DNA from: Nitratireductor sp. B36
GTDB lineage: Bacteria; Pseudomonadota; Alphaproteobacteria; Rhizobiales; Rhizobiaceae
Length of the DNA: 64,000 nucleotides
Assembly (NCBI RefSeq): GCF_020833685.1
Contig: NZ_JACKZY010000003.1
Span: 758,997 to 822,996, forward strand
Reading direction: 5' to 3'
Numbering within the stretch: the first letter of the stretch is position 1; each line of letters opens with the position of its first letter. The notes below the pieces were generated by a model. That model worked only from the letters and a program-made list of their open reading frames with translations. It had not been told where the DNA came from and ran no database searches. Positions 12,893-33,161 of the stretch are shown one piece after another. The position numbers and the translations under genes were made by a program.

Positions 12893-12895
12893 GGG

Positions 12896-13681: not shown

Positions 13682-13696
13682 CTCCCATGAAATGAA

Positions 13697-13722: not shown

Positions 13723-13738
13723 TCTCTGGCTGACCGGA

Positions 13739-15719: not shown

Positions 15720-17125
15720 AGGTAGTCGCGCGCTCCGCTCTTGCGGGTGCTGCGCTGTGTTCTTCCGTCGGAGGGGCCTGGGCTCATGCATCTGAGCGCG
15801 GCTATGTGCTGCTTTTGCCGACGGATTATTATCTGTTCGGCGGCATGCTTGCAGTTGCGCTGAGCTTTCTTGTTCTTGTTTTTCTTCCGGTTGAGGGTTT
15901 CGAGCGGCTTCTGGCGCGGGGTTGGGCATTGTTCTCCGTGCCTCTCGACGGTCGGGCGGCGATCAGCTTTGCCTCCTTTCTCATTCTCGCAGGGCTTGTG
16001 TTTGCCGGGTTTTCGGGCAGTCGCGATCCGCTCTCAAATCCGCTGCCTTTGGTCGTATGGACGCTGCTCTGGGTGGGGGTGACCATCGTTCAGGGCGTGA
16101 TTGGGAATGTCTGGGCCTGGATCAATCCATGGTACGGACCCTGGCGGCTTCTTGTGAGGCTGGGGGTGCCTGAAACGGGGATCTGGCGGATGCCCGGCGT
16201 TCTGGGGCGATGGCCAGCGTTCTTCACCCTATGCGGATTTGCATGGTTCGAACTGGTGTATCTGGCACCGGCTGATCCCGAGCGGCTCGCGGTTGCGGTG
16301 TCGATCTACTGGGTGTTCACGTTTGCAGGCATGGTTCTTTTCGGACACGCAGCGTGGAGCCGCCGGGTGGAGTTCCTGACGCTCTTTTTCGGCATGCTTT
16401 CGCGCCTCTCTTTCCTTGCGGTGAGCGAGAGGGAAGGGCGGCGGAAGCTGGTGTTTGGTTTGCCGGGCTACAAGCTTGGCGGTGTGGCAGCGCTGTCAAT
16501 TTCGGGCATCGCCTTTCTTCTGTTCGCCCTGAGCTCGGTTTCCTTCGACGGACTCAAACACACATTCTTCTGGCTCGATCTCATCGGCATCAATCCGCTG
16601 GAGTTCCCGGGGCGTTCGGCGGTGGTCGGGGCGAGTTCGCTCGGGCTAATCGTCATGTTCGGACTGCTGTTTTCCGCGTTCCTGGCTGCGGTGTGGCTTG
16701 GCTGCCGGCTGGCCGGGGAAGACGATTGGCTAGAACTGGCGGGACATCTCGCGTGGTCGATCATCCCCATCGCGCTTGCCTATCATTTCTCGCACTATCT
16801 GGTGGGTTTCACCATCAACAGCCAGTATGCGCTGGCCGCGCTTTCCGACCCGCTTATGCGCGGCTGGAACCTGTTTGGAACGGCAGGCCTGCACGTGCAG
16901 GCGGGCGCGACGCTCGGGGCGCAATCGGCGTGGATCATCTGGAATGCACAGGCATTCGCGATCATTGGAGGGCATGTGCTGGCGGTGGTTCTGTCGCATC
17001 TGATCGCGTATCGACATTTCGGCTCGGCTCAACGCGCCACGATGAGCCAGATTCCTTTTGCGGTTCTCATGGTCGGATACACGGTTTTCGGTCTTTGGCT
17101 GCTGTCTGCGCCAACTGCGGGCTGA
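15716..17125 (+). CDS. Polytopic membrane protein, similar to the fenitrothion-hydrolase (FedB) annotated family
   Basis: A 469-residue protein with a probable signal peptide (1-23, ending GGAWA, then HASERGY) and about ten to eleven hydrophobic segments. The layout (short exported N terminus with an early His, then many helices with NPWYGPWRLLVRLG and HFSHYLVGF stretches) recalls membrane proteins annotated as fenitrothion hydrolase FedB. I recognise this only loosely and no catalytic motif can be named. It overlaps the GntR gene by four bases and is therefore translationally coupled to it. It may be a transporter-like or membrane-bound metal-dependent enzyme. Confidence 0.5.
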   Translation: MKVVARSALAGAALCSSVGGAWAHASERGYVLLLPTDYYLFGGMLAVALSFLVLVFLPVEGFERLLARGWALFSVPLDGRAAISFASFLILAGLVFAGFSGSRDPLSNPLPLVVWTLLWVGVTIVQGVIGNVWAWINPWYGPWRLLVRLGVPETGIWRMPGVLGRWPAFFTLCGFAWFELVYLAPADPERLAVAVSIYWVFTFAGMVLFGHAAWSRRVEFLTLFFGMLSRLSFLAVSEREGRRKLVFGLPGYKLGGVAALSISGIAFLLFALSSVSFDGLKHTFFWLDLIGINPLEFPGRSAVVGASSLGLIVMFGLLFSAFLAAVWLGCRLAGEDDWLELAGHLAWSIIPIALAYHFSHYLVGFTINSQYALAALSDPLMRGWNLFGTAGLHVQAGATLGAQSAWIIWNAQAFAIIGGHVLAVVLSHLIAYRHFGSAQRATMSQIPFAVLMVGYTVFGLWLLSAPTAG

Positions 17126-17331: not shown

Positions 17332-17344
17332 GTTTGTACACAAG
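17332..17344 (-). promoter_or_regulatory. Candidate operator sharing GTGTACAAAC with 23011-23023
   Basis: On the minus strand the 13 bases read CTTGTGTACAAAC. The promoter region of the hydroxylase operon has TTCGTGTACAAAC (11 of 13 identical). The match could mark co-regulation of the importer and the catabolic operon. Confidence 0.35.
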
Positions 17345-17421: not shown

Positions 17422-18726
17422 ATGAGTGAAAATCGCAAGTCTCTGATTAATTTAAACGGCGGTCTGACGCGCAGGTCCGCGCTCAAGGGGTTGGGAGCAG
17501 CGGCGGGTCTGGTGGCTGCACCTGGCTTCGTGCGCTATGGCCAGGCGCAGTCTTCCGAACCCATCAAGGTCGGTTTCCAGTGCCATCGCACCGGCATCGG
17601 CGCAGCGTATGGCCGTTGGTATGAGCGCGTGACGACCGCAGCCGCCAAGCGCATCAACGATGCCGGCGGCATCAATGGACGCCCGCTCGAGATCATCATC
17701 GAGGACGATGGCACGGACCCGAAGCGTGGTGCGGAAGTGGTGGAGAAATTCGCCAATCAGCACAAGGTCGACCTGGTCTATGGCACGCTGTTTTCCCACG
17801 TGGTTGTCGGCTCCGCGCCGGCGGCGGGCGAGCTGAAGATCCCCTATTACGTGGTGAGCGAGGGCTACCACGTAGCATCGGGCAAGATGAACCGCTATTG
17901 TGTGCAGCCTGGTATCACCGATGTGAAGGCGCAGGCGCGCTCCGTAGCGCCGTGGATTGCCGACAATCTCGGCAAGAAGGTCACGCTCGTCTATCCCGAC
18001 TACGCGTTCGGCCATGATCACCGCGATTTCTTCACTCCGGCCATCGAGGCGCAGGGCGGGCAGGTGGTCGCCAAGGTGCCGATCCCCCCGACCGAAACCT
18101 CGTTCACCCGCTATTTCCCGCAGATCCCGCGTGACACGGATGTGATCTACCATGTGATGGTGGGGCCGGCCGTGCTGACCTTTGTGAAGGAGATGGGCGA
18201 GTTCTTCGGCTCCGGTGGGCCGCAGCTCTTCGGCTTCATCGATTCGCTCGAAGCCGTCGATATCTCAAGCCCGGGTCTGGAATTCCTCGAGGGCAGCCAT
18301 TTCTGGGAAGGCATGCCGCGCTATGCGCAGCCCGATCAGCCGGACTATGTGACCGCGTATCGTGAGGCCGTGGGCATCGACCAGAATGGCGCCAGCGCCA
18401 ATGATGCCAAGGATGTTTCAACCGCAGCCCATATGTTCGGCTGCTGGGAGACGCTCAACATCATCAAGGCATCGATGGAAGCCTGCGACTACAAGGGGCC
18501 GGATGACCGCGCCGCGATGATCGAGGCAACCGAGGCGATGACCGAAATGGAGGCCGGGCCGGACCATCCGCAGGGCAAGAAGCTGTTCAACGGCAAGATC
18601 CACCAGGTCTTTGGCGAACAGAACATCAGCCAGGTGAAAAAGGGTAAGCTCGAAGTGGTGCACCGCACCTCCATCGAGGATGGAGCCTACGAGCCTGAGG
18701 CCGACTATACGGCGATGTCGTTCTAA
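17422..18726 (+). CDS. LIV-type ABC transporter substrate-binding protein, Tat signal
   Basis: A 434-residue receptor read from ATG 17422. An upstream in-frame extension to 17290 has no signal sequence. The N terminus LTRRSALKGLGAAAGL is a twin-arginine signal, so the protein is probably exported folded. The mature part (IKVGFQCHRTGIGAAYG, then INDAGGINGRPLEIIIEDD) is a periplasmic-binding-protein type I fold of the amide/branched-chain amino acid group. It heads an operon with two permeases and two ATPases. The ligand is unknown. The position just upstream of a heterocycle-type catabolic operon suggests an organic acid or amide. Confidence 0.85.
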   Translation: MSENRKSLINLNGGLTRRSALKGLGAAAGLVAAPGFVRYGQAQSSEPIKVGFQCHRTGIGAAYGRWYERVTTAAAKRINDAGGINGRPLEIIIEDDGTDPKRGAEVVEKFANQHKVDLVYGTLFSHVVVGSAPAAGELKIPYYVVSEGYHVASGKMNRYCVQPGITDVKAQARSVAPWIADNLGKKVTLVYPDYAFGHDHRDFFTPAIEAQGGQVVAKVPIPPTETSFTRYFPQIPRDTDVIYHVMVGPAVLTFVKEMGEFFGSGGPQLFGFIDSLEAVDISSPGLEFLEGSHFWEGMPRYAQPDQPDYVTAYREAVGIDQNGASANDAKDVSTAAHMFGCWETLNIIKASMEACDYKGPDDRAAMIEATEAMTEMEAGPDHPQGKKLFNGKIHQVFGEQNISQVKKGKLEVVHRTSIEDGAYEPEADYTAMSF

Positions 18727-18865: not shown

Positions 18866-19747
18866 ATGGCCTTCGGTCCGTATTTTCTCCTCGCTACGCT
18901 TGAAGGGCTGGTGACGGCGGCTGTCCTGTCGCTGATTGCACTCGGCCTTTCGCTGGTCTTCGGTGTCATGCGCGTGGTGAATGTCGCCCATGGCGAGTTC
19001 TACATGCTGGGCGCGGTGCTCGCCTGGTGGGTTGCCTCGCTGTTCGGCGGGCATCCGGCAATCGGCTTCATGGTGGCGCTGGTGCTGAGCCCGCTCGTCG
19101 TCGCCGCCATCGCCTTTGTTGCCGAGCGGCTGGTTTTGAGCCGGCTGAAGTATGAGCCGGAGGCAACCATCGTCGCCACGATTGGCTTGCTCTACATCAT
19201 CCAGCAGCTGGCACTGACATTCTACGGCCCCGAAGCGCGACCGGTGGAGGCGCCGTTCCACTATCGCATGCAACTGCCATGGTTCGGCTATTCTGCCTAC
19301 AAGCTGGCCGTGATCGGGTTTTCCATCGTCATGATGCTGGCGACGTGGTTTGTGCTCACACGCACGAAGATCGGCCTCGTCATGCGCGCCACACAGTTCG
19401 ACCGGGAGACGGCGCAGGCTTTTGGCATTCCGGTCGGGCGCGTCTATGCCGGCGTGTTCGCGCTGGGGGCGGGGCTTGCCGCCGTTGCCGCCGTGCTGAT
19501 CGTGCCGATCCAGCAGGCGCATTATTTGATGGGGCACGATCCGCTGCTTCTGTCCTTCATTGTCGTGATCATCGGCGGGCTTGGCTCGCTGCGCGGCACG
19601 GTTTTGGCGGCGGTGCTGATCGGCCTGTCGGATGGCATCATCTCAATGTTCTTCTCGCCGACACTTGCCAAAATGCTGGCGACGCTGGCTGTCGCGATGA
19701 TCCTCGTGTTCCGCCCGCAGGGCCTGTTCGGAGCGGCGGCACGATGA
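18866..19747 (+). CDS. LIV-type ABC transporter permease, LivH-like
   Basis: A 293-residue membrane protein with about eight helices. Family stretches include LSLVFGVMRVVNVAHGEFYMLGA near residue 27 and the late GLGSLRGTVLAAVLIGLSDG. It forms the channel with the LivM-like protein, whose gene overlaps its stop by four bases. Confidence 0.9.
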   Translation: MAFGPYFLLATLEGLVTAAVLSLIALGLSLVFGVMRVVNVAHGEFYMLGAVLAWWVASLFGGHPAIGFMVALVLSPLVVAAIAFVAERLVLSRLKYEPEATIVATIGLLYIIQQLALTFYGPEARPVEAPFHYRMQLPWFGYSAYKLAVIGFSIVMMLATWFVLTRTKIGLVMRATQFDRETAQAFGIPVGRVYAGVFALGAGLAAVAAVLIVPIQQAHYLMGHDPLLLSFIVVIIGGLGSLRGTVLAAVLIGLSDGIISMFFSPTLAKMLATLAVAMILVFRPQGLFGAAAR

Positions 19748-20709
19748 CCAGACTGACCCCTTCCACAAAATCCGTTGCGCTTCACATCGGCGTGGTTCTC
19801 GCACTGCTGGCACTCAACTTTCTCCTGCCGGAATATCATCGCGGCGTGTTTGCGCGGGTGCTGGTGCTGGCCGTCTTCGCCATGGGCTACAATCTGGCCT
19901 TCGGCTATACGGGCCTGCTCAGCCTTGGTCATGCGATGTTCTTTGCTGCCGGGCTCTATGGAGCCGGGCTGACCATCTATCATCTGGAATGGAGCGTGTG
20001 GCCGGCCTTTGGAGCGGGGCTTGCCGCCGGCGTGGTGGTGGCGCTTGTGGTCGGCTTTCTGGCGCTGCGCACCACGGGTGTCGCGTTCATGATCGTGACG
20101 CTGATGTTCGCGCAGGTCTTTTACCTGATGACCCTCTATTTCACGACCTATACGCGCGGCGAGGAGGGGCTCGTTCTGCCACAGGAAACACGGGTTCTGG
20201 GCTTTCCCGGCGGGATGCTCGATCTCTCGGACCCGTCGACGCGCTATCTCGTGGCACTTTCGCTGTTCGCGATCGTTCTGGCTGCGATCCTGTTTCTGGT
20301 GCGCGCACCCTATGGCCGGTCTCTGATCGCCATCCGCGAGAACGAGGAGCGCATGCGCATGCTGGGCTATAACGTCTTCGTCAACAAGCTGATGGCGGTG
20401 GTGCTTTCGGGGCTTTTCTGCGCAGCCTCGGGTGCGGCCTATGCGGTGCTCTTCGGCTATGTCGGGTCAGGCTTTGCGGCGATCCAGTATTCCATCCTGC
20501 CGCTGCTGTGGGTGCTGGTCGGCGGGGCGGCGGCGACGCTCGGGCCTCTGATCGGCACGCTGTTCATGTTTTATGTTATCGACACCGCGTCGAGCTACAC
20601 CACGGCGCATCTCATGGTGGTCGGACTGGTGCTGATCGGCGTGATCCTGTTTTTCCCCAAAGGCATCATCGGAACGGTGCGTGAAAGGTGGTTGCCATGG
20701 CTGCCGTGA
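19744..20709 (+). CDS. LIV-type ABC transporter permease, LivM-like
   Basis: A 321-residue membrane protein starting at ATG 19744, which overlaps the previous stop as ATGA. The frame is open further upstream but only inside the LivH gene. LivM features are visible: FGYTGLLSLGHAMFFAAGLYG and the EAA-like cytoplasmic loop FLVRAPYGRSLIAIRENEERMRMLGYN (residues about 180-206). It pairs with LivH and is followed by two ATPases. Confidence 0.9.
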   Translation: MTRLTPSTKSVALHIGVVLALLALNFLLPEYHRGVFARVLVLAVFAMGYNLAFGYTGLLSLGHAMFFAAGLYGAGLTIYHLEWSVWPAFGAGLAAGVVVALVVGFLALRTTGVAFMIVTLMFAQVFYLMTLYFTTYTRGEEGLVLPQETRVLGFPGGMLDLSDPSTRYLVALSLFAIVLAAILFLVRAPYGRSLIAIRENEERMRMLGYNVFVNKLMAVVLSGLFCAASGAAYAVLFGYVGSGFAAIQYSILPLLWVLVGGAAATLGPLIGTLFMFYVIDTASSYTTAHLMVVGLVLIGVILFFPKGIIGTVRERWLPWLP

Positions 20710-21437
20710 AGCCGCTTCTTGAGACCCATGGGCTTGGCCGCTCCTTCGGCGGGCTGCGGGCGGTGGATGGCGTGGACTTCTCACTGCCGGAAGGCGAGAC
20801 GCACGCGATCATCGGGCCGAACGGGGCCGGCAAGACCACCTTTGTGAGCCTGATCTGCGGGCGTGTTGCGCCGACCGATGGGCGCGTCGTCTTCGATGGG
20901 AAGGACATTTCGCTCATGCCCGCTCACAAGCGGGTGCGGGCGGGCATCGCCTACACGTTTCAGATCACCAGCGTGTTTGCCAATCTGACGGCCTTCGACA
21001 ATGTGGCGCTGGCGGTGCAGCGGCAATTGATCGACGATCATGAGAGGGGGCTCTCCTCCCGCGCGCTGACCGAGCACGGCATGGACGCACTTCAGAAGGT
21101 CGGACTTGGTGGATATGCCGACAAGGTGGCCGGCAATCTCTCCTATGGCCACCAGAGGCTTCTTGAGGTGGCGATGGGGCTGGCGCTCCGGCCGCGCCTC
21201 CTGATTCTCGACGAGCCCACGCAGGGCCTCTCCGACAGCGAGATCGAGAATTTCATCGCGCTGGTGCGCCAGATCGGCGAGGAGGCGACGGTGCTTCTGA
21301 TCGAACACAATATGGATGTGGTCATGGCGCTTGCCGAGCGCATCACGGTGATGGAGCAGGGGCGCATTCTCGCGCAGGGCGCACCTGCCGAAATCCGCGC
21401 GAACCAGGCCGTCCAGCAGGCCTATCTCGGAGGTTGA
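20697..21437 (+). CDS. LIV-type ABC transporter ATPase, LivG-like
   Basis: A 246-residue ATPase starting at ATG 20697, six bases after a GGTGG site and overlapping the LivM gene by 13 bp. Walker A is GPNGAGKTT, the signature LSYGHQRLLEVAM, Walker B RLLILDEPTQGL and the switch His in LLIEHNMDVV. LivG-type proteins carry exactly this AYTFQI-style Q-loop (YTFQITSVF). Confidence 0.9.
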   Translation: MAAVKPLLETHGLGRSFGGLRAVDGVDFSLPEGETHAIIGPNGAGKTTFVSLICGRVAPTDGRVVFDGKDISLMPAHKRVRAGIAYTFQITSVFANLTAFDNVALAVQRQLIDDHERGLSSRALTEHGMDALQKVGLGGYADKVAGNLSYGHQRLLEVAMGLALRPRLLILDEPTQGLSDSEIENFIALVRQIGEEATVLLIEHNMDVVMALAERITVMEQGRILAQGAPAEIRANQAVQQAYLGG

Positions 21438-21438
21438 G

Positions 21439-22146
21439 ATGACGGCTGCCCTGACAATGGAACATGTCGACAGCGCCTATGGCCATGTGCAGGTGCTGCG
21501 CGGCTTCGATCTGGAACTGCGGCAAGGTGAGGTTCTCTGCCTGCTTGGCCGCAACGGTGCCGGCAAGACCACGGCGCTGAAAACGATCATGGGACTGGTG
21601 CCGGCAACCGCCGGGCGCATTCTGCTTGGCGATGTGGAGTTGAACAGTCTTGCGCCGCACGAGGTGCCGAAGGCGGGTGTCGCCTATGTGCCGCAGGGGC
21701 GGCGGCTCTTTTCCGAGCTGACGGTGGGCGAAAATATCGAGATCGGTCTGATGACGCGCGGCAAGGGCGCTGCCACGCGCGACAGTGTGCTGGATCTCTT
21801 CCCTGTGTTGCGCGAGCGCTTGAAGCAGCGCTCCGGCACGCTTTCCGGCGGCGAGCAGCAAATGCTGGCCATGGCGCGGGCGCTGTGTCTGGAGCCGCAG
21901 GTGCTGCTTCTGGATGAGCCGACGGAAGGGCTGATGCCCTCCATGATCGCGCGCATCCGCGAGACGGTGGCAGGGCTGCGCGAGCGCGGGGTCTCCACCA
22001 TTCTCGTTGAGCAGCGGGTGGATGCGGTGCTGCCGGTGGCGGACCGGGTCGCGTTCATCGAGAACGGGCGCAACCGCGAGACGGTGGATGTCGAGCGGCT
22101 GCGGGAGGACCCCGAGATGGTGCACCGCTATGTGGGGGTAGGGTGA
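21439..22146 (+). CDS. LIV-type ABC transporter ATPase, LivF-like
   Basis: A 235-residue ATPase, one base after the LivG stop. Walker A is GRNGAGKTT, the Q-loop region VAYVPQGRRLFSELTV is LivF-typical, the signature is LSGGEQQMLAMARAL and Walker B VLLLDEPTEGL. Last gene of the importer operon, followed by a repeat hairpin. Confidence 0.9.
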   Translation: MTAALTMEHVDSAYGHVQVLRGFDLELRQGEVLCLLGRNGAGKTTALKTIMGLVPATAGRILLGDVELNSLAPHEVPKAGVAYVPQGRRLFSELTVGENIEIGLMTRGKGAATRDSVLDLFPVLRERLKQRSGTLSGGEQQMLAMARALCLEPQVLLLDEPTEGLMPSMIARIRETVAGLRERGVSTILVEQRVDAVLPVADRVAFIENGRNRETVDVERLREDPEMVHRYVGVG

Positions 22147-22329: not shown

Positions 22330-22929
22330 TCACGCGAGCGTCACACCGGCCTCTTTCATCTTCGCAGTCATCGCGGAAAGTGAGCCGCCGAGGTCGATGG
22401 CGCGGCAGGCATCTATGATGACGGTGGCCTCAAAACCCTGACGGCGCGCGTCGATGGCCGAATAGGCTACGCAGAAATCCGTTGCGAGGCCGGCAAGCGT
22501 CACCCTGGTGATGCCACGTTCGCGAAGATAGCCTGAAAGGCCGGTCGGCGTTTCGTGGTCGTTTTCGAAGAAGGCGGAATAGCTGTCGATCGCGCTGCGA
22601 AAACCCTTGCGGATGACAAGCTCCGCCTTGTCCCACGCCAGATCCTCGTGAAACGCGGCGCCCTTCGTGCCTTGCACACAGTGATCGGGCCAAAGCGTCT
22701 GCGTGCCATAGGGCATTTCGATCGTATCGAACGGGGCCTTGCCCTGATGCGAGGAGGCGAAGCTCGAATGGCCCTCCCGGTGCCAGTCCTGGGTCAGCAC
22801 CACATGGTCGAAGCGCTCGATCAGCCCGTTGATGACCGGAACCACCGCGTCGCCATCTTCAACGGCAAGCGCTCCTCCGGGGCAGAAATCATTCTGCACA
22901 TCAATCACGATCAGTGCCTCGTCGGCCAT
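22330..22929 (-). CDS. pncA: Nicotinamidase / pyrazinamidase
   Basis: A 199-residue isochorismatase-fold amidase that hydrolyses nicotinamide to nicotinate for NAD salvage. Catalytic residues are Asp10 (VIDVQNDF), Lys108 (VIRKGF) and the nucleophile Cys153 (ATDFCV). Metal-ligand candidates Asp48 and His50 are in TQDWH, and a conserved PDHCVQGTKGA block is present. The protein is full length. It is divergent from the hydroxylase operon and shares its promoter region. Since its product nicotinate is the substrate of pathways containing a 6-hydroxynicotinate reductase, the neighbourhood may be functional rather than accidental. Confidence 0.93.
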   Translation of the reverse strand: MADEALIVIDVQNDFCPGGALAVEDGDAVVPVINGLIERFDHVVLTQDWHREGHSSFASSHQGKAPFDTIEMPYGTQTLWPDHCVQGTKGAAFHEDLAWDKAELVIRKGFRSAIDSYSAFFENDHETPTGLSGYLRERGITRVTLAGLATDFCVAYSAIDARRQGFEATVIIDACRAIDLGGSLSAMTAKMKEAGVTLA

Positions 22930-22983: not shown

Positions 22984-23011
22984 TTGACAAGCGTGCTGAG
23001 GAGCGTATCAT
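22984..23011 (+). promoter_or_regulatory. Candidate sigma-70 promoter of the hydroxylase operon
   Basis: TTGACA (22984-22989) and TATCAT (23006-23011) are separated by 16 bases. The predicted start point near 23018 leaves a leader of about 78 bases. Confidence 0.6.
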
Positions 23012-23023
23012 TCGTGTACAAAC
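23011..23023 (+). promoter_or_regulatory. Candidate operator overlapping the transcription start
   Basis: TTCGTGTACAAAC directly abuts the -10 element and contains the palindromic core TGTACA. A close copy lies upstream of the LIV receptor gene (17332-17344). The position suits a repressor such as the MarR protein encoded at the operon's end. An eight-base palindrome CAAATTTG follows at 23023-23030. Confidence 0.4.
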
Positions 23024-23095
23024 AAATTTGAGCCCCGCTGGCATTGCATCGGCAGGGGCCTGGGAACAACATCGCAAATGGCAGGCAGGCGCAGC

Positions 23096-23950
23096 ATGGA
23101 CTATGCCAGACCGACCGAACTGGAGGAAGCGCTCGGGCTCTTATGCACGAAGCGCTGGACCATACTTGCCGGAGGCACGGATTTTTATCCCGCCCTCGGC
23201 GCGGGCCCGCTGAAGAGCGACGTGCTCGACATAAACGGATTATCGGCATTGAGCGGGATTGAAGAGACCGAGACGCATTTCGTGATCGGCGCGCGGACGA
23301 GTTGGAGTGCGGTGATCGCTGCGGGGCTGCCGCCTGCCTTCGACATGCTCAAACAGGCGGCCCGGGAGGTTGGTTCGGTGCAGATCCAGAACACGGGGAC
23401 GGTTGCCGGAAACCTTTGCAACGCCTCGCCGGCGGCTGACGGCGTTCCGCCGCTTCTAGCTCTGGATGCGGAGGTGGAATTGCGCTCGGTGAGGGGTGCG
23501 CGACACCTGCCGCTCGCGAACTTCATTCTGGGCAATCGCAAGACCGCACGGGCGGATGATGAACTTCTCACCGCTGTCCGAGTGCCCAAGGCCGCAACGC
23601 GCGGTGCCTCCGGCTTCGTCAAGCTGGGCGCGCGGCGCTATCTGGTCATTTCCATCGCCATGGCCGCTGCCCGGGTTGTGCCTGACGGAGGGCGGGTCGC
23701 GAAAGCGGCCATCAGTGTCGGTTCATGCTCTGCCGTGGCGCAGCGCCTTTCGGGGCTGGAATCGCGGCTTGAGGGTATCAAGAGATCTGAGATGCGCCGG
23801 ACCGTGATGGAATACGCTTTTCCGGAGCTTTCCCCCATCGATGATGTGCGAGGCACCGCCACCTATCGGCGCGAGGCGGCGCGGGAGATCGTGATCCGTG
23901 CGCTTGAGCAGGCATGGCAGGGTGCAGGGCACAGCGAGGTGGCGGCATGA
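23096..23950 (+). CDS. FAD-binding subunit of a molybdenum hydroxylase (CoxM/XdhB family)
   Basis: A 284-residue flavoprotein that passes electrons from the iron-sulfur clusters to the acceptor. FAD-binding signatures are AGGTDFYP (about residue 28) and the TVAGNLCNASPAAD loop (about 105). A C-terminal CoxM-C domain follows (about 180-280). The ATG at 23096 (MDYARPTELEEAL) fits the family N terminus; an in-frame ATG at 23078 would add six residues. The stop overlaps the next start as ATGA. First gene of a six-gene coupled operon. Confidence 0.88.
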   Translation: MDYARPTELEEALGLLCTKRWTILAGGTDFYPALGAGPLKSDVLDINGLSALSGIEETETHFVIGARTSWSAVIAAGLPPAFDMLKQAAREVGSVQIQNTGTVAGNLCNASPAADGVPPLLALDAEVELRSVRGARHLPLANFILGNRKTARADDELLTAVRVPKAATRGASGFVKLGARRYLVISIAMAAARVVPDGGRVAKAAISVGSCSAVAQRLSGLESRLEGIKRSEMRRTVMEYAFPELSPIDDVRGTATYRREAAREIVIRALEQAWQGAGHSEVAA

Positions 23951-26691
23951 GCGGGAAAAGCCTGTCCGTATCTCTGGAAGTCAATGGCAAGTCCATCGTG
24001 ACCGAGGTCTCTCCGCTTCAGAGGCTTTCTTCCGTGTTGCGTGACGAACTGGGGCTGACTGGCACCAAAGTCGGCTGTGACGCCGGCGATTGCGGGGCCT
24101 GTTCGGTGATGGTGGATGGCGCGGTGGTCTGCGCCTGCCTCGTGCCGGCCGCCGGTCTTTCGGGCAAAAAAGTGCGCACGGTGGAGGGGCTTTCAAATGG
24201 CAGCCTCTCGGCACTTCAGGAATCCTTTCTGCGCCACGGGGCGGCCCAGTGCGGGATTTGCACACCGGGCGTTCTGGTGAGCGCGGCAGCACTTCTGGAG
24301 CAGAACCCGACACCGTCTGAGACCGAGGTGCAGGACGCCCTGGGCGGGGTTCTGTGCCGCTGCACAGGCTATCGCAAGATCATCGAGGCGGTGATGAACG
24401 CCAACCGCTCCGTGGGTGTCAAGGCCAGTATGGTCGAGCAGGGTCATGCGGTTGGCGCCTCGCCGATCAGGCTCGATGGCGAGCGCAAGGTGAATGGAAC
24501 GGAGATTTTCGGCGCGGATGAGCGACCTGCCGATGCGCTGTCGGTCGCGGTTGTGCGGTCGCCGCACTGGCATGCCGATTTCGAGATCGGTGACACGGAG
24601 GCGTTCATCGCCGCGCATCCGGGCATTGTCGCGGTTTTCACTGCAGCCGACATTCCAGGCGAAAACCGGTTTGGCGTCATCCCGCCTTTCGCCGATCAGC
24701 CGGCGCTGGCCGAGGGCCGGGCGCGGTTTCGCGGCGAGGCGGTGGCGCTGATTGCGGGCGAGCGCGATGCAATCGAGGCACTCGATATGGATGCCTTTCC
24801 GATCCGCTGGCAGGAACTGCCCCATGCGCTGACGCCCGATGAGGCGCGGCGGGAAGGCTTTGCGGATCTGCATGAGGGGCGGGCGGGCAATGAGCTGACG
24901 CGAGGGTTCGTGGAATGCGGCGACCCGGAAGGCGCGCTTTCCAAAGCCTTTGTCTCGGTCTCCGGTGAGGTCGAGACCTCCTATGTGGAGCACGCCTATA
25001 TCGAGCCGGAAGCGGGCTATGCGATGATGGATGGCGATATGCTGGTCATCAAGGCCTGCACGCAGGCGCCCTATATGGATCGCGACGACACGGCGAAGGT
25101 GCTCGGTCTGCCGCCGGAGAAGGTGCGCATCGTGCCGTTGGCGACGGGCGGCGGCTTTGGTTCCAAGCTTGACGTCTCCTTGCAGCCGCTGGTGGGGCTG
25201 GTTGCGCTCAAGACCGGGAGACCGGCGGCGATTGTCTATACGCGCGGCGATTCCATGCGCTCCACCACCAAGCGGCACCCGGCAACGATGCGCGCTTCCA
25301 TTGCCGCCGACGAGGCGGGGCGCGTGACCGGCATGGTGTTTGAAGGGGATTTCAACACCGGGGCCTATGCAAGCTGGGGGCCGACGGTTGCAAACCGCGT
25401 TCCGGTTCATGCCTCGGGGCCCTATCGCACGCCGCATTATCGCGCGACGGGGCGGGCTATCCACACCAATGGTCCGATTTCAGGTGCGTTTCGCGGGTTC
25501 GGTGTGCCGCAGGCGACGATCATGCAGGAAACGCTCTATGACCGGCTGGCGGAAAAGCTGGGACGCGACCGGCTGGAATTTCGCATCGAGAATGCGCTTT
25601 CCGATGGGGACCGCACCACCTGCGGGCAGGTGCTTTCTGGCGTCGGCATTCGCCAGTGTCTCGAGGCGCTGAAACCGCACTGGGCGCGGGCCCGAGGTGA
25701 AGCTGAAGAGGCCAATGCTCGAGAGGGCAGGGTGCGGCGCGGCATCGGCGTCGCGTCCTGCTGGTATGGCTGCGGCAACACCGCGCTACCGAACCCTTCA
25801 ACCATTCGTGTGGGGATCACAACGTCCGGTGCGGTGATGCTGCATCAGGGCGCGGTGGATATCGGCCAGGGCTCCAACACGGTGGTGACGCAGATCTGCG
25901 CTGATGCGAGCGGCCTGCCGCTCTCGGCGTTTCAGCTTGTGGGCGGTGATACGGGTGTCACGCCGGATGCCGGGAAGACATCGGCCTCGCGCCAGACCTA
26001 TGTGACGGGCAAGGCTGCCGAAAAGGCGGGACGTGCTCTGCGCGAAAAGATCCTGCGCTTTGCCAATGTGTCGGATGGGGCGAAGATTGCGCTGGAGGAT
26101 GGCGCGCTGGTGATCAGCGAGGGGACGGAGCGCCGGCGCGTGGCGCTTTCCGATATTGAGGCCGATGCGCATGGTTATGTGTTTTCGGCGGAAGAGACCT
26201 ACGATCCGCCCACGACGGCGCTGGACGAGAAGGGGCAGGGTGTTCCCTATGCGGTCTACGGTTATGGTGCGCAGCTTGTGGAGCTGGAAGTCGACACCAC
26301 GCTTGGCACGGTGCGACTTCTGAAAATCACGGCGGCGCATGATGTGGGCCGTGCGATCAACCCGCTTCTCGTGGAAGGGCAGATCGAGGGTGGCATCGCG
26401 CAGGGTATTGGCCTTGCGCTGATGGAGGAATATGTGCCGGGGCGCACGGAAAACCTGCATGATTATCTGATCCCCACCATTGGCGATGTGCCGCCGGTCG
26501 AAACCATTCTGGTGGAAGTGCCGGATCCGGAGGGGCCTTTTGGCGCCAAGGGGCTGGGCGAGCATGTGCTTATCCCCACCGCGCCGGCGATCCTTAATGC
26601 GATCCGCCATGCGGTGGGAGTGGAAGTTACGAAAGTGCCGGCAACGCCGAGCCGCATTCTGGCGGCGATCCGGGCACGGGAGAACGGGTGA
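23947..26691 (+). CDS. Molybdenum hydroxylase, fused [2Fe-2S] and molybdopterin subunits
   Basis: A 914-residue fusion of the usual small and large subunits of the xanthine dehydrogenase family. Residues 1-160 form the iron-sulfur part: Cys44, 49, 52 and 64 for the plant-type cluster, and Cys102, 105, 137 and 139 (CGIC, CRC) for the second. Residues about 170-914 form the molybdopterin-cytosine-dinucleotide-type part with ATGGGFGSKLD, GAFRGFGVPQA and the active-site glutamate in GLGEH near the C terminus. With the FAD subunit it should hydroxylate an aromatic N-heterocycle or aldehyde using water as oxygen source. The reductase downstream favours a nicotinate-like substrate. Cytoplasmic, as no signal peptide is seen. 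Confidence 0.88.
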   Translation: MSGKSLSVSLEVNGKSIVTEVSPLQRLSSVLRDELGLTGTKVGCDAGDCGACSVMVDGAVVCACLVPAAGLSGKKVRTVEGLSNGSLSALQESFLRHGAAQCGICTPGVLVSAAALLEQNPTPSETEVQDALGGVLCRCTGYRKIIEAVMNANRSVGVKASMVEQGHAVGASPIRLDGERKVNGTEIFGADERPADALSVAVVRSPHWHADFEIGDTEAFIAAHPGIVAVFTAADIPGENRFGVIPPFADQPALAEGRARFRGEAVALIAGERDAIEALDMDAFPIRWQELPHALTPDEARREGFADLHEGRAGNELTRGFVECGDPEGALSKAFVSVSGEVETSYVEHAYIEPEAGYAMMDGDMLVIKACTQAPYMDRDDTAKVLGLPPEKVRIVPLATGGGFGSKLDVSLQPLVGLVALKTGRPAAIVYTRGDSMRSTTKRHPATMRASIAADEAGRVTGMVFEGDFNTGAYASWGPTVANRVPVHASGPYRTPHYRATGRAIHTNGPISGAFRGFGVPQATIMQETLYDRLAEKLGRDRLEFRIENALSDGDRTTCGQVLSGVGIRQCLEALKPHWARARGEAEEANAREGRVRRGIGVASCWYGCGNTALPNPSTIRVGITTSGAVMLHQGAVDIGQGSNTVVTQICADASGLPLSAFQLVGGDTGVTPDAGKTSASRQTYVTGKAAEKAGRALREKILRFANVSDGAKIALEDGALVISEGTERRRVALSDIEADAHGYVFSAEETYDPPTTALDEKGQGVPYAVYGYGAQLVELEVDTTLGTVRLLKITAAHDVGRAINPLLVEGQIEGGIAQGIGLALMEEYVPGRTENLHDYLIPTIGDVPPVETILVEVPDPEGPFGAKGLGEHVLIPTAPAILNAIRHAVGVEVTKVPATPSRILAAIRARENG

Positions 26692-28217
26692 TGAACGAGC
26701 TCACCGAGCGTTTTGAGGTCACGCCGCCGAAGAAGCCTTTGGACGAAAAGCTGCGCTGTGATGCCTGCCCGGTGATGTGCTATATCGCCGAGGGGCGCAC
26801 GGGTGCCTGCGACCGCTATGGCAATTTCGGCGGGCGCATTACCCGATGTGATCCGGTGACGATCCTTGAACATGCCGCCGAGGAGGGGGATGCTGTTGTC
26901 CCCTTTGAAGGCGAAGCGCCATGGGATGGCGAACTGGTCAACACGAAGCGCCGCTTCGTGAGCGCGGTGGGCGCGGGCACCACCTATCCGGACTACAAAC
27001 CTGCCCCTTTCATCGTTTCGCAGGAGGTGGAGGGTGTCGATCTCGTCACGGTGGTGACGGAGGGCATCTTCTCCTATTGCGGCGTGAAGGTGAAGATCGA
27101 TACGGACCGCCATCTGGGGCCCGAAGCGGCCACCGTGCGGGCGAATGGTGAAGCGGTCGGCCATGTCACCACCGCCGAATACGGCAGCCAGATGCTCTCG
27201 CTCGGCGGCGTGCATCACCTGACCGGCGGATCGAAGGCGGAGGGTCGCGTCACGTGCCAGGCGATGCTCGATCTGTGCAACAAGAAGCCGGTGGAACTGA
27301 CCATTGACGGGGGCGCGAGCGTTGTCGTGCAGGCCGGACAGCCGCCGGTGATCGACGGAACGCGTGAAGAGCGCATGCGGGTGGGCTGCGGCTCGGCCAC
27401 CATCGGCATGTTCGCCACCCAGTGGAAGGGTCTCGTGGACGAGGTTGTCGTGGTCGATGACCACATTACCGGTGTCGTCTCCGAGCATCAGGCGGGAAAG
27501 GTGATCGGCTGGGAGGATACAGGCATCAAGATCATCGGCCGCCGTTCCACGCCGGGGCGTTATTTCAAGGTGTCGGAGCCGGGGCTCGGATGGGGCGGGA
27601 CGACCATTGACGACCCGCTCGATATTCTTGGTCCCTTCAACGAGAAGAAGGGCGCGCGGCCAGGCCTCTCCCTGCTCATGGTTTCCACCACGGGCGAGCA
27701 GTTTGCCTATTACGAGCTTGATGAGGCGCTTCAGCCGGTCAAGAAGCCATTCCCGGAGCGCTTGCGCAAATCGGTCGACCTGATCGAGCAGAATTGCGAG
27801 CCGGCGCTGTGCACCGTGCTTTTCATGGGTGGGGCGGGGGGCAGCCTGCGCGCCGGCGTGACGGAGAACCCGGTCAATCTGACGCGCTCCGTTCAGGGCC
27901 TCAAGACCTATGTCACAGTCGGCGGAGCGCCGGTTTATGTGTGGCCGGGTGGCGGCATCACCATCATGGTGGATGTGATGCGCACGCCGGAAAACGCCTT
28001 TGGCTATGTGCCAACGCCGGCGCTGGTGGCGCCCATCGAATTCACGCTCAGGCGGGAGGATTATGTGCGGCTCGGCGGCTATGCGGATGAAATCCGCAGC
28101 GTCGAGGATGTGCTGGAAAAGGGTGGCGAATATTTCAACCCGCGTGAGGCGCGGGGGGCTGTGGTTTCCAATCCCTGGCCGCCGCTCCAGCAATTGCGCC
28201 GGGAACCGAAGCGATGA
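26691..28217 (+). CDS. 6-hydroxynicotinate reductase-like iron-sulfur protein
   Basis: A 508-residue protein that I recognise as the family annotated 6-hydroxynicotinate reductase. That enzyme reduces 6-hydroxynicotinate to 1,4,5,6-tetrahydro-6-oxonicotinate in Eubacterium barkeri nicotinate fermentation and is reported as an activity in Azorhizobium. The N terminus has Cys23, Cys26, Cys30 and Cys40 (CDACPVMC then GAC), a likely [4Fe-4S] site. The remainder is glycine-rich with no transmembrane segment. Its ATG overlaps the previous stop by one base, so its stoichiometry with the hydroxylase is probably fixed. The actual substrate is an inference from family name and context. Many aerobic proteobacteria carry this gene with the same neighbours. 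Confidence 0.75.
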   Translation: MNELTERFEVTPPKKPLDEKLRCDACPVMCYIAEGRTGACDRYGNFGGRITRCDPVTILEHAAEEGDAVVPFEGEAPWDGELVNTKRRFVSAVGAGTTYPDYKPAPFIVSQEVEGVDLVTVVTEGIFSYCGVKVKIDTDRHLGPEAATVRANGEAVGHVTTAEYGSQMLSLGGVHHLTGGSKAEGRVTCQAMLDLCNKKPVELTIDGGASVVVQAGQPPVIDGTREERMRVGCGSATIGMFATQWKGLVDEVVVVDDHITGVVSEHQAGKVIGWEDTGIKIIGRRSTPGRYFKVSEPGLGWGGTTIDDPLDILGPFNEKKGARPGLSLLMVSTTGEQFAYYELDEALQPVKKPFPERLRKSVDLIEQNCEPALCTVLFMGGAGGSLRAGVTENPVNLTRSVQGLKTYVTVGGAPVYVWPGGGITIMVDVMRTPENAFGYVPTPALVAPIEFTLRREDYVRLGGYADEIRSVEDVLEKGGEYFNPREARGAVVSNPWPPLQQLRREPKR

Positions 28218-29116
28218 GTGGTGCGACCGCCAGTTGGCTTGCCGATGGACGCCGCCTGCATTTGAACCATGGGCCCATCGACCTGATCGTCGAGGCTTTT
28301 GGGCAAGAGCAGGAGCGGCTTTTGGCCTATCGGCAGGCCGTGGCGCGGTTTGAGACGATCCTTGATGAACTGGTGGCTGAATTGCCGGCCCTGCGCAGTC
28401 CGGCTGGTGCGAGGCTCCGCCGCTTTTGCGGCTCCACCGCGCAGCGTATGGAAAGGGCGGTGCATGCGCATGTGCCCGCTTTCGTTACGCCGATGGCCGC
28501 TGTGGCCGGCAGTGTCGCCGACGAAGTTCTGGCGGCACTTTTGAAGGGCCGGGCGCTGGCGCGGGCCTACGTGAACAATGGCGGGGATGTTGCGCTTTAC
28601 CTCGCGGAGGGCGAGACGCTGGACATTGCCATCGCAGGCACGGGGAATGGCATGGCGGATCGCATCGCAGTGAGCGCCAGCGATCCGGTTCGGGGCATTG
28701 CGACCAGTGGCTGGCGCGGCAGGAGCCATTCGCTCGGGATTGCGGATGCCGTGACGGTGCTTGCCCCTTCGGCGGCGGCGGCGGACGTGGCGGCGACGCT
28801 GATCGCCAATGACATCGATCTGCCGGGGCATCCAGCCGTGAAGCGTGTCCCTGCAAACGAGATTGACCCGGACAGCGATTTGCGCAATCGCCTGGTGACG
28901 CAGACGGTGGGGCTGCTTTCCCCTGCCGATGTTGCGCTTGCCCTCGACAGGGGACTTGCCACCGCGTCGGCCATGCGTGAGCGTGGCCTTATTGAGGCGG
29001 CTGCCCTGTTTTTAGAGAGAGAAACCCGGGAATGCGGCTCAATCGCGCTGGAAATTCCGACGCATTCGACCGCTCCTGCTCATTCTGTTGTACAAAAAGG
29101 TTCCATTCATGCCTGA
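28214..29116 (+). CDS. UPF0280 family protein (COG2122, ApbE-like fold)
   Basis: A 300-residue protein of unknown function, coupled to the preceding stop by ATGA. A conserved core FVTPMAAVAGSVADEVL and YVNNGGDVALYL (about residues 93-140) is typical of UPF0280. The family is structurally related to ApbE, the FAD:protein FMN transferase. The second half contains ATSGWRGRSHSLGIADAVTV, comparable to the ApbE region that holds the metal and flavin. It could attach or handle a flavin for the neighbouring reductase, but this is an inference. No signal peptide, so cytoplasmic. Confidence 0.8.
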   Translation: MSGATASWLADGRRLHLNHGPIDLIVEAFGQEQERLLAYRQAVARFETILDELVAELPALRSPAGARLRRFCGSTAQRMERAVHAHVPAFVTPMAAVAGSVADEVLAALLKGRALARAYVNNGGDVALYLAEGETLDIAIAGTGNGMADRIAVSASDPVRGIATSGWRGRSHSLGIADAVTVLAPSAAAADVAATLIANDIDLPGHPAVKRVPANEIDPDSDLRNRLVTQTVGLLSPADVALALDRGLATASAMRERGLIEAAALFLERETRECGSIALEIPTHSTAPAHSVVQKGSIHA

Positions 29117-29693
29117 ATTCACCTTGCGCAAGATTGCGCTTGTCACCGAAGAAATCTTCCATGAGGGCGGTCCTGCTCCGGCTGGGCCTCGCCGCCGGGC
29201 GGCGGCTCTCGCGCTGGTCAAAAACCCTTTTGCGGGCGGATATGTAGAAGAGCTTGAAAGCGCAATGGAGGATTTGAAACCTCTCGGTCTTGATATGACG
29301 GATCGGCTGATTGCGGCGCTTGGGGGAGATATTTCCGTGATCGACGGTTTCGGTAAGGGCGCGATCGTCGGCACCGACGGAGAGCTGGAGCACGGTGCGC
29401 TTTGGCACGTGCCGGGCGGCTATGCGATGCGTGAGCGGCTTGGCGATTCAAAGGCGATAGTCCCCTCTTCGAAGAAAGTGGGGGCCTTCGGTGCGCGCAT
29501 CGATATTCCGCTCGGGCACATCAATGCGGCCTATGTGCGCAGCCATTTCGATGCGATGGAAGTGGGGTTGGCAGACGGCCCTCGTCCTGATGAAATCCTG
29601 TTTGTACTTGCCATGGCTTGTGGTCCGCGTATCCATGCACGCATGGGCGGCTTGAAAGCGGAAGACGTGAAAGGTGAGGACGGCCTCAGATGA
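29109..29693 (+). CDS. PF06684 (DUF1185, 'amino acid synthesis') family protein
   Basis: A 194-residue protein starting at ATG 29109 (MPEFTLRKIALVTEEIFHEGG), eight bases inside the previous gene. Recognisable family runs are NPFAGGYVEELE, GKGAIVGTDGELEHGALWHV and PLGHINAAYVRSHFDAMEV. Crystal structures of the family show a trimeric chorismate-mutase-like fold with no proven reaction. That fold is shared by ring-opening amidohydrolases such as cyanuric acid hydrolase, so a hydrolytic ring-opening role here is possible, though unproven. Confidence 0.8.
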   Translation: MPEFTLRKIALVTEEIFHEGGPAPAGPRRRAAALALVKNPFAGGYVEELESAMEDLKPLGLDMTDRLIAALGGDISVIDGFGKGAIVGTDGELEHGALWHVPGGYAMRERLGDSKAIVPSSKKVGAFGARIDIPLGHINAAYVRSHFDAMEVGLADGPRPDEILFVLAMACGPRIHARMGGLKAEDVKGEDGLR

Positions 29694-30154
29694 GTGGAGA
29701 GCAGAGCAAGCTCAGGGTTCTGGCCGGTGGAAAATCTGCCGATGCTTATGATCTGAGCGAGCAGGTCGGCTTTATCCTGCGCAAGGCCAACCAGCGCCAT
29801 CTGTCGATCTTCGCTTCCCGCATCAGCGATCTTACGCCGCCGCAGTTTGCGGCTCTGGCCAAGCTTTACGAGGTGGGAGCGACCTCCCAGAATCAGCTTG
29901 GCCAGCTGGTGGCGATGGACGCCGCCACCATCAAGGGCGTGATCGACCGGCTTAAGGCGCGTGATCTTGTGGTGCTCGAGCCACACGGACGCGACCGGCG
30001 ACGGCTGGTGGTGAGCCTGAGCGATGACGGGAAAGCGCTCATTGAAGCGCTGCTTCCCGATGCGCTGGACGTAAGCGAAGAAACGCTCGCGCCGCTCACC
30101 CCGCGCGAGACCGCAACCTTTCTGCGGCTTCTGACAAAGCTCGCTGAGGGATGA
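29690..30154 (+). CDS. MarR-family transcriptional regulator
   Basis: A 154-residue winged-helix regulator with the MarR pattern LTPPQFAALAKLYEVGATSQNQLGQ (about residues 43-67), MDAATIKGVIDRLKARDLV and the wing PHGRDRRRLVVSLSDDG. Coupled to the preceding stop by ATGA, the last gene of the operon, and so probably its local repressor. MarR proteins respond to aromatic or phenolic ligands, which suits a pathway intermediate as effector. The dyad over the operon's start point is a natural binding site. Confidence 0.87.
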   Translation: MSGEQSKLRVLAGGKSADAYDLSEQVGFILRKANQRHLSIFASRISDLTPPQFAALAKLYEVGATSQNQLGQLVAMDAATIKGVIDRLKARDLVVLEPHGRDRRRLVVSLSDDGKALIEALLPDALDVSEETLAPLTPRETATFLRLLTKLAEG

Positions 30155-31480: not shown

Positions 31481-32248
31481 ATGCGGCCTGTCGTTGTTCG
31501 AATTTTTCTCGCGACCTTTTTCCTGGGCGCGGCTGGAAATGCCGGAGCCGAAGGCGGAGAAACACACCGCTTTCGATATAGCGCATCGCTGTTTGGAATT
31601 CCCATCGGCAAGGCTGATTTCACAAGCCGGCTCGAAGAAGATCGTTTCGAGGTTTCGGGGCGTTTTGCCAGCGCGGGCGTGGCCCGCCTTTTCGACAGAA
31701 CCGATGGGCGCGTGACGTCGAAAGGTCAGCTTTCAAATCAATCCGTGGTGCCTTCTTCCTACGAGCTCGCCTATACGAGCGGAAAGAAGCGGGAGACCAC
31801 GTCAATCCACTATGAAAAGGGGCAGGTTGTAAAGACGGTGATAACGCCGAAGCCCAAGAAGCGCGGAAAGGATTGGGTCGCCGTTTCAAAAGACGATCTC
31901 ACGGATGCACTCGATCCGCTGGCCGCATTGCTCTCGCCCGTGCAGGGCGCGTCCGGTGTCTGCAACCGCCGCTTCAAGGTTTTCGATGGTGAAATGCGTG
32001 CCGACATCGTCTTTTCACCTGCGGCCAAGGGGGAGCGAATCGGGCGTGATCTGATCACCTGCAAGGCGCGTTTCATTCCGATCTCCGGCTACCGCAAGGG
32101 GCGCTCCACAATTGCTTTCCTGCGCGATAAGGCTCGTATATTGGTTGCGTTCAAACCGCTTGGCACACGTGGTCATCACACGCCCGTGCTGGCGCAGATC
32201 GGAACCAAGATTGGAACCGTCCATATTCAAGGCCGGCCAGTCGACTAG
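31481..32248 (+). CDS. Exported DUF3108 domain protein
   Basis: A 255-residue protein when started at ATG 31481, which gives a signal peptide (about 1-24, ending AGNAGA). A GGAGGG site lies 13 bases upstream, and the longer frame has no good signal. The mature part is beta-rich: FRYSASLFGIPIGKADF at the N terminus and VFDGEMRADIVFSP near the middle, typical of DUF3108. The family is periplasmic or outer-membrane associated, with function unknown. It is divergent from rpmB. Confidence 0.75.
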   Translation: MRPVVVRIFLATFFLGAAGNAGAEGGETHRFRYSASLFGIPIGKADFTSRLEEDRFEVSGRFASAGVARLFDRTDGRVTSKGQLSNQSVVPSSYELAYTSGKKRETTSIHYEKGQVVKTVITPKPKKRGKDWVAVSKDDLTDALDPLAALLSPVQGASGVCNRRFKVFDGEMRADIVFSPAAKGERIGRDLITCKARFIPISGYRKGRSTIAFLRDKARILVAFKPLGTRGHHTPVLAQIGTKIGTVHIQGRPVD

Positions 32249-32270
32249 AAGAGTCCTCAGGGAGGGGCAA

Positions 32271-33161
32271 TTGGCACGTGCCACGTTGATCGGGTTCACG
32301 GCGGTCGTCATGTGGGCGTTACTGGCGCTTTTTACGGCTGGTACAGGGAAGGTTCCTCCCTTCCTCCTTTCAGCCTTGGCCTTTTCGGTGGCCACGCTGA
32401 TTGGGCTTGTGATGAGGATCGCCGTGCCACCGGCGGAGCCTGCCGCTCGTGTGCCACCGGTGGTCTGGCTCATCGGTATTGCGGGGCTTTTCGGCTATCA
32501 CTTCTTTTACTTCACTGCATTGCGTAACGCGCCAGCGGTGGAGGCGAGCCTCATCGCCTATCTCTGGCCACTGCTGATCGTTCTGGGCTCGGCGTTGATG
32601 CCGGGGGAGCGGCTTGGCTGGCACCATATTGCGGGGGCGCTTCTGGGGCTTGCGGGCACGGCGCTCATCATCACCAAGGGCGGCGGGTTCAGCTTTGAAA
32701 GCCGCTATGCGCTCGGCTATGCGGCGGCGGGAGCCTGTGCTCTTTTCTGGTCCGGCTATTCGCTTCTGTCACGCCGGTTTGACGCCGTGCCAACCAGCAT
32801 TGTCACGTGGTTCTGCGGGGCAACGGCTGTGCTTTCAGCGCTCTGCCATCTCGGACTGGAGGAGACGGTCTGGCCGGCTTCAACCGGGGAATGGCTGAAT
32901 GTGCTCGGTCTCGGCCTTTTGCCAGTGGGGGCGGCCTTCTACGCCTGGGATTACGGGGTCAAACGCGGCAACATTCAGGTGCTGGGAGCGGCAAGCTATG
33001 CCGCGCCGCTTCTTTCGACGTTGATCCTGATTGCTGCCGGTGCTGCAGAGCCAACTGCAAACATCATTGCCGCCTGTCTTCTGATCACCTTCGGTGCCGT
33101 GCTCGCTGCGAAGAACATGATTTTGAAGCCACGCCGGCGGGAAGCCGGTGCAGCATCGTAA
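32271..33161 (+). CDS. EamA-family (DMT superfamily) transporter
   Basis: A 296-residue membrane protein with about ten helices in two EamA repeats (about 1-130 and 145-290). The TTG at 32271 is chosen because GGGAGGGG lies four bases upstream and the product then begins LARATLIGF; the longer frame overlaps the DUF3108 gene. Signature stretches are NAPAVEASLIAYLWPLLIVLGSA (about 80-102) and YGVKRGNIQVLGAASYAAPLLSTL (about 230-253). Likely exports or imports a metabolite such as an amino acid. Substrate unknown. Confidence 0.85.
   Translation: MARATLIGFTAVVMWALLALFTAGTGKVPPFLLSALAFSVATLIGLVMRIAVPPAEPAARVPPVVWLIGIAGLFGYHFFYFTALRNAPAVEASLIAYLWPLLIVLGSALMPGERLGWHHIAGALLGLAGTALIITKGGGFSFESRYALGYAAAGACALFWSGYSLLSRRFDAVPTSIVTWFCGATAVLSALCHLGLEETVWPASTGEWLNVLGLGLLPVGAAFYAWDYGVKRGNIQVLGAASYAAPLLSTLILIAAGAAEPTANIIAACLLITFGAVLAAKNMILKPRRREAGAAS

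Follow-up and report, generated by a model that had tools for sequence, protein, structure and literature searches.

The 64,000-nucleotide stretch of Nitratireductor sp. B36, a relative of the root-nodule bacteria, analyzed here (from contig NZ_JACKZY010000003.1; hereafter the window), in a host genome of 4.19 Mb in 9 contigs, contains six overlapping genes on the plus strand at positions 23078-30154, with a promoter-like site ahead of them at 22984. The first gene encodes the FAD subunit of a molybdenum hydroxylase (23078-23950; PF00941 and PF03450). The second gene (23947-26691, in a reading frame open from 23914) encodes the fused [2Fe-2S]-Mo subunit of this hydroxylase, a probable nicotinate 6-hydroxylase, and contains the domains PF00111 (Fer2), PF01799 (Fer2_2), PF01315 (Ald_Xan_dh_C), PF02738 (MoCoBD_1) and PF20256 (MoCoBD_2). 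The third gene encodes a homologue of 6-hydroxynicotinate reductase (HNR; 26688-28217), with a GTG start and an alternative ATG at 26691. It is followed by the genes for a UPF0280 protein (28214-29116), which is a remote ApbE homologue and is proposed here as a flavin transferase for HNR, for a PF06684 protein (29109-29693, in a frame open from 29088), which is proposed with low confidence as a 2-formylglutarate decarboxylase, and for a regulator with a MarR family match (29690-30154), the probable repressor of the regulon. As read from the sequence, the successive junctions overlap by 4, 4, 4, 8 and 4 bases, and the Mo/HNR overlap shrinks to 1 base if the ATG at 26691 is the start. The open reading frames and the sequence thus confirm the six coupled genes, with overlaps of one to eight bases, of a preliminary description made from the sequence alone. 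The family scans also agree with its gene names, the one exception being the HNR-like protein, for which neither Pfam nor NCBIfam gives a match better than E 0.001.

The preliminary description had proposed a neighbourhood survey of the 26691-28217 family, and such a survey indicates that the same unit recurs across 88 loci. These loci, to which the window is added, consist of 8 plasmid records and 80 genome loci (the best 80 of at least 588 relatives), and the order of 22 tracked genes in them was established by tblastn. In 87 of the 88 loci, the first tracked gene that follows HNR is UPF0280; the exception is a 5.7 kb contig (L081). The Mo subunit lies directly ahead of HNR in 81 of 88, and a 4-base overlap is possible in 53 of these 81. 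PF06684 lies immediately 3' of UPF0280 in 79 adjacent pairs. When the start nearest to the stop is chosen, which biases the count toward overlap, a start overlaps the preceding stop in 30/71 adjacent FAD/Mo pairs, 60/81 Mo/HNR pairs, 65/87 HNR/UPF0280 pairs, 66/79 UPF0280/PF06684 pairs and 36/38 PF06684/MarR pairs of the relatives. An ABC transporter is often encoded upstream, and a divergent nicotinamidase is encoded there in Mesorhizobium-type loci. These counts overstate independence, because many of the loci are closely related, and this weakens the case to some extent. The operon is real, and its pathway is of a known kind with a variant ring-opening step. Its assignment to a reductive nicotinate pathway, already made in the preliminary description from the hydroxylase and HNR, is upheld by the presence of enamidase, NicAB-like hydroxylase or nicotinamidase genes near the unit in its relatives.

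Proposed reduction of 6-hydroxynicotinate and the UPF0280 protein

The operon may well encode the upper steps of a reductive nicotinate pathway in an aerobe, and the full model, including the roles of UPF0280 and HyuAB, is held with reasonable but not high confidence. According to this model, nicotinamidase (22330-22929) and the ABC transporter would supply nicotinate, the FAD/FeS-Mo hydroxylase would convert it to 6-hydroxynicotinate, and HNR would reduce this compound to tetrahydro-6-oxonicotinate (THON) with electrons from a ferredoxin-NADP reductase whose gene lies 172 kb away. UPF0280, as an ApbE-type flavin transferase, would attach the flavin needed by HNR. HyuAB, of the oxoprolinase/caprolactamase type, would replace enamidase and open the THON lactam at the expense of ATP, which yields 2-formylglutarate and ammonia, and PF06684 would then probably remove CO2 from the formyl acid, toward glutarate semialdehyde. 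The MarR protein would repress the operon and the distant HyuAB module via TTYGTRTRCRAA. Gene content, gene order, co-occurrence, complementarity and motif conservation are observed; the substrates, flavin transfer, electron route, decarboxylation and repression are those that we infer. The model offers two to three new functional predictions beyond the known kind of pathway. It departs from the preliminary description, in which the two unknown proteins were assigned to later steps: UPF0280 accompanies HNR on a one-to-one basis and resembles a flavin transferase, ring opening is best explained by HyuAB encoded elsewhere, and only PF06684 may catalyze a later step.

HNR relatives are found in 26 of 72,556 plasmid records with 60-80% identity, and the protein is named HNR because 17 of these 26 are annotated as 6-hydroxynicotinate reductase. 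Its closest relative among the matches listed is 98% identical and comes from a Nitratireductor metagenome-assembled genome. A PDB search with HNR gives nothing better than E 0.3. All four residues of the Cys motif C24-C27-C31-C41 are present in 33 of 33 sequences. The N-terminal region (26757-26819) reads CDACPVMC...GACDRY, a motif which presumably resembles that of some radical-SAM-associated proteins. Among 398 Pseudomonadota genomes, which served as the sample for co-occurrence, HNR is present in 32. In one of them it matches in two pieces (G016:C1:2969811-2971258), possibly owing to a frame break or a split gene.

UPF0280 is found in 33 of the 398 genomes, namely all 32 HNR genomes and one other (G373), in which the match is marginal (33 residues, E 8.5e-4). 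It is encoded on the same strand as HNR and at most about 560 bases from it in all 32 genomes, and the window's genome has one copy. The protein of 28214-29116 scores 378.9 bits with PRK04334.1-2 of NCBIfam, for which the cut-off is 290. Its comparison with a profile of 18 ApbE proteins gives a probability of 90.5 (E 1.3e-6), and the PF06684 and HNR profiles, compared with that ApbE profile as controls, reach 0.1. The NGGD, ATSG and ADxxAT motifs of UPF0280 are in register with those of ApbE, and all 46 aligned UPF0280 sequences have N121, G123, G124, D125, A163-T-S-G166, D191 and T195 without exception. The residues aligned with these positions have known roles in ApbE. A weak match is found to PDB 2o34 (E 5e-5), which we take to have an ApbE-like fold. 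The window's genome has no PF02424 (ApbE) match. The simplest reading of these results is that UPF0280 probably attaches the covalent flavin of HNR. In a literature search, with subscription articles mostly outside its coverage, no link of UPF0280 or flavinylation with hydroxynicotinate and no publication under the name UPF0280 were found among the papers listed. UPF0280 matches in two pieces at L015:11536-12621, where a frame break or a split gene is possible.

Several points weigh against this assignment. UPF0280 scores only 10 bits (E 0.6) against PF02424, for which the cut-off is 25.6. The catalytic His of ApbE, which acts as a general base (PMC12052999), is not conserved in UPF0280; H172 is present in 24 of 46 sequences. 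The standard flavinylation target D-x-x-[ST]-G-A-[ST] is not seen in HNR in alignments inspected by eye; the nearest stretch is C-G-S-A-T, the last position of which is Ala in one plasmid relative. UPF0280 cannot serve HNR alone everywhere, because it is found outside HNR bacteria (2o34), and further organisms outside this group also possess it. HNR itself owes its name to annotated relatives and not to a direct comparison with the Eubacterium barkeri enzyme, and its covalent flavin is presumed from the one reportedly described on the latter by Alhapel in 2006. The lack of a conserved His, the score under the PF02424 cut-off and the missing target motif would all be expected if UPF0280 were another maturation factor of HNR, such as a flavin-binding chaperone or an FAD hydrolase. 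This alternative is a serious one, though somewhat unlikely, and the fact that the residues invariant in all 46 sequences sit at positions aligned with the ApbE motifs argues against it.

Ring opening, substrate and the PF06684 protein

An amidohydrolase encoded in one of the HNR loci (L003) is a relative of enamidase: it matches PDB 2vun with E 2.4e-111 and 376 bits, and its next match has 33 bits. When the 32 HNR genomes are searched with this protein, an enamidase match (60-91% identity) is found in 17, and none is found in the window's genome at E 1e-30. A HyuA orthologue (62-100% identity) is likewise found in 17 of the 32. Fifteen genomes have HyuA only, 15 enamidase only, two both and none neither (Fisher p 2.4e-7, uncorrected for relatedness); by genus, eight of 16 have HyuA only, seven enamidase only and one is mixed. 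When at most two candidates are scored per genome, a close HyuA orthologue (at least 62% identity) is present in 17 of the 398 genomes, all of which have HNR. The next-best relatives are 44-47% identical, and two of them are in non-HNR genomes. In the window's genome, HyuB-HyuA and a divergent ferredoxin-NADP reductase are encoded near C3:605-610 kb, at a distance of 172 kb from the operon. This HyuA keeps the ATP motifs of caprolactamase (DVGGTFTD, DMGGT and GAKPGP), and HyuB has H108-D111-H133 with the spacing of CapB, which accounts for three of the four metal residues, the position of CapB D41 being outside the comparison. Some of the motif residues of caprolactamase are essential, as judged by mutation (PMC8453981). 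The complementarity with enamidase, the confinement of HyuA to HNR genomes and the kept motifs therefore suggest that HyuAB is likely a THON lactamase, and that HyuAB, not enamidase, likely opens the THON ring in the window's genome. No work joining nicotinate with hydantoinase or oxoprolinase was found among the papers listed in the literature search. In two genomes (G123:C11:55970-58290 and G194:C11:29790-32155) enamidase is encoded beside a PF06684 pair, with HNR and HyuA on other contigs.

NicAB-like hydroxylase genes lie near HNR in L001-L003 and in L152-L157. In L001, NicB has cytochrome c domains after its Mo domains, and an additional Mo-subunit match lies more distant from HNR. The NicAB-like genes, nicotinamidase and transporter around HNR are consistent with nicotinate as the common substrate, and nicotinate is the likely substrate of the operon. 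The hydroxylase is less informative on this point: its Mo subunit is no nearer to nicotinate dehydrogenase 3hrd (256 and 232 bits, in two parts) than to other enzymes, the top PDB match being an aldehyde oxidoreductase (415 bits), so that the substrate is not readable from its sequence by the NCBIfam and PDB comparisons. That its closest solved relatives are aldehyde oxidoreductases would fit an aldehyde or purine oxidase unconnected with the rest of the operon. This is highly improbable, in view of the position of the Mo subunit directly before HNR in most loci, often with a 4-base overlap available, and of the cytochrome-c-containing NicAB-like enzyme that takes the place of the hydroxylase elsewhere near HNR. 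It is also unlikely, to a lesser degree, that the operon uses enzymes of these kinds on a different N-heterocyclic acid, such as a picolinate or a pyrazine or pyrimidine carboxylate. The hydroxylase sequence is not nicotinate-specific, the HyuA genomes mostly lack enamidase, so that part of the family may act on a different substrate, and a Rieske-type oxygenase is encoded near HNR in four loci. Nicotinate is nevertheless favored by the window HNR, which shares 59-70% identity with 8 plasmid relatives accompanied by enamidase, NicAB-like genes or HyuAB, and by the nicotinamidase gene, which adjoins the operon.

PF06684 is less closely tied to HNR than is UPF0280. It is present in 59 of the 398 genomes, including 31 of the 32 with HNR; its presence in 28 genomes without HNR and its absence from one with HNR count against its place in the model. 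PF06684 proteins have conserved His residues, and a conserved His cluster and a role in amino-acid metabolism, suggested from fold and context, have been described for the family (PMC2954203). Twenty stretches (L159-L178) from 19 of the 28 non-HNR genomes contain genes for aldehyde dehydrogenase (16), luciferase-like oxygenase (12) and flavin reductase (11), with all three in nine; flavin reductases were counted apart from alpha/beta hydrolases, which are also encoded beside these genes. This gene set presumably corresponds to that of trigonelline clusters. The trigonelline route has a different ring-opening chemistry from the nicotinate route. A 2-formyl dicarboxylate is expected as an intermediate of both routes, and PF06684 is for this reason proposed, with low confidence, as a protein that may decarboxylate formyl acids. 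TgnF, a PF06684 homologue of the trigonelline route, stimulates succinate semialdehyde oxidation; a similar effect was not observed for the authors' own homologue (PMC7913881). In the HNR clusters of L006, L007, L008 and L053, a Rieske-type oxygenase gene has two genes of the PF06684 family and an ABC transporter in its vicinity.

A role of PF06684 in ring opening was considered and dropped. The idea came from what we take to be a broad likeness of its fold to cyanuric acid hydrolase repeats. If PF06684 opened the lactam ring and HyuAB acted later, its presence in nearly all HNR genomes and its conserved His residues (PMC2954203) would be accounted for. This arrangement is improbable, since PF06684 co-occurs with enamidase, which is already a ring opener, and with trigonelline-like clusters, and since it is HyuA, not PF06684, that is complementary to enamidase.

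Regulation and neighbouring genes

The promoter of the operon is sigma-70-like (TTGACA-16-TATCAT, 22984-23011, plus strand) with 11 of 12 matches; one promoter-like site is found against 0.1 expected from shuffles. An operator-like dyad, TTCGTGTACAAA (23011-23022), touches the -10 box, matches TTYGTRTRCRAA exactly and is a probable MarR site. With at most one mismatch, TTYGTRTRCRAA is present in 52 of 57 FAD-gene upstream regions, 40 of them exact (shuffled mean 0.39, maximum 2); in these regions, window included, PncA or MarR is encoded divergently at 40-500 bases. With one mismatch it is present in 18 of 18 intergenic regions between HyuA and ferredoxin-NADP reductase, including that of the window's genome (shuffled mean 0.17), and an 18 kb HyuAB stretch has four matches at three places against 0.48 expected. 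It precedes the transporter in 8 of 37 regions against 0.4 expected; the corresponding second site in the window (17333-17344, minus strand) has one mismatch and is weak alone. These results suggest that MarR probably represses both modules through the TTYGTRTRCRAA operator. This suggestion is weakened by the derivation of the consensus, built on 10-mers in common and on some palindromes, from the same regions on which it was tested, by its absence before the membrane-protein gene in all 8 regions, and by its count in the window, which is at chance (three matches at two places against 1.83). No exact palindromes are found ahead of the operon in the window or in most of the relatives' regions.

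The nicotinamidase PncA is encoded divergently from the operon (22330-22929, minus strand), matches PRK11609 with 210 bits against a cut-off of 174 and PDB 2wt9 with E 1.4e-75, and is the only nicotinamidase match in the window's genome. The ABC transporter genes, all on the plus strand, encode a periplasmic binding protein (17422-18726; PF13458; ATG read, frame open from 17290), permease 1 (18866-19747; an open reading frame recurrent in the loci), permease 2 (19744-20709; PF02653; ATGA overlap with permease 1, frame open from 19279), and ATPases 1 (20688-21437) and 2 (21439-22146), both assigned by family scans. Farther upstream, a polytopic membrane protein without known family (15716-17125, plus strand) has nine transmembrane-like segments, with H357, H360 and H420 invariant in 11 sequences. 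It recurs upstream in at least 29 of the 88 loci and is found in 14 of 32 HNR genomes against 2 of 48 hand-picked others. Its membership in the system is uncertain, and it may perhaps be an electron acceptor for the hydroxylase, which is a guess. A relationship to FedB was likewise a guess, on which a literature search yielded nothing of use. The window also encodes an aromatic amino acid exporter YddG (32112-33161, plus strand; 412.8 bits against a cut-off of 300) and a second ABC transporter (11960-14878, minus strand) with a TrpX-like binding protein under the cut-off.

Significance and comparison with known systems

The predictions may be joined into one proposal, in which UPF0280 would represent a further flavin transferase class, divergent from ApbE, dedicated here to HNR, with a new target site and lacking an ApbE-type His, a HyuAB subfamily would be an ATP-driven THON lactamase replacing enamidase, and PF06684 would be a 2-formyl dicarboxylate decarboxylase common to the nicotinate and trigonelline routes. 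It is rather doubtful that this proposal holds in all its parts. If it did, three protein families would gain their first chemical role from one pathway. Flavinylation of HNR by UPF0280 would broaden the range over which covalent attachment of flavins is known, and the switch between enamidase and HyuAB would clearly exemplify two unrelated enzymes that catalyze one step. The one-to-one pairings allow predictions for individual genes in many bacteria of soils and the sea, and these extend to bacteria that reach 6-hydroxynicotinate from 6-chloronicotinate (PMC3511419).

An aerobic version of the reductive pathway is not new, because a cluster has been described in Azorhizobium caulinodans and Bradyrhizobiaceae SG-6C, which combines genes for the initial three steps with those for a transporter and for two unknown proteins (PMC3511419). 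The HNR of SG-6C shares 42% identity with the E. barkeri enzyme, and the pathway proceeds via THON and glutarate (PMC3511419). The two unknown proteins, which are not named in the passages of that report used here, are taken to be UPF0280 and PF06684, for which testable roles are now available. The window's system resembles these clusters in occurring in an aerobe with clustered step genes and a transporter (PMC3511419). A group of large genomes of the same order (g12), used here in place of the named Azorhizobium and SG-6C clusters, has enamidase in nine of nine genomes, with NicAB-like genes near HNR in both loci inspected (L155 and L156), whereas the window's genome has the FAD/FeS-Mo hydroxylase and HyuAB.

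In the nicotinate fermentation of E. barkeri, the later steps proceed via 2-methyleneglutarate. Among solved structures, the E. barkeri enamidase comes closest to the L003 amidohydrolase, and the window's genome differs from E. barkeri in that no enamidase was found in it at the threshold given above. The order of hydroxylase and HNR is common to the two systems (in part from PMC3511419). The CapAB caprolactamase, 5-oxoprolinase and N-methylhydantoinase resemble HyuAB in the ATP-site and metal-site motifs, but the proposed substrate of HyuAB is an enamide delta-lactam, THON, and its close HyuA orthologues are confined to HNR genomes in the sample. PF06684 belongs to the same family as TgnF of trigonelline degradation, and nine of the 20 non-HNR stretches are trigonelline-like. 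The ApbE/Ftp transferases (PF02424) resemble UPF0280 in profile and in the three motifs, but UPF0280 lacks the conserved His in about half of its sequences, falls under the Pfam cut-off and is paired with an HNR in which the standard target motif is not seen.

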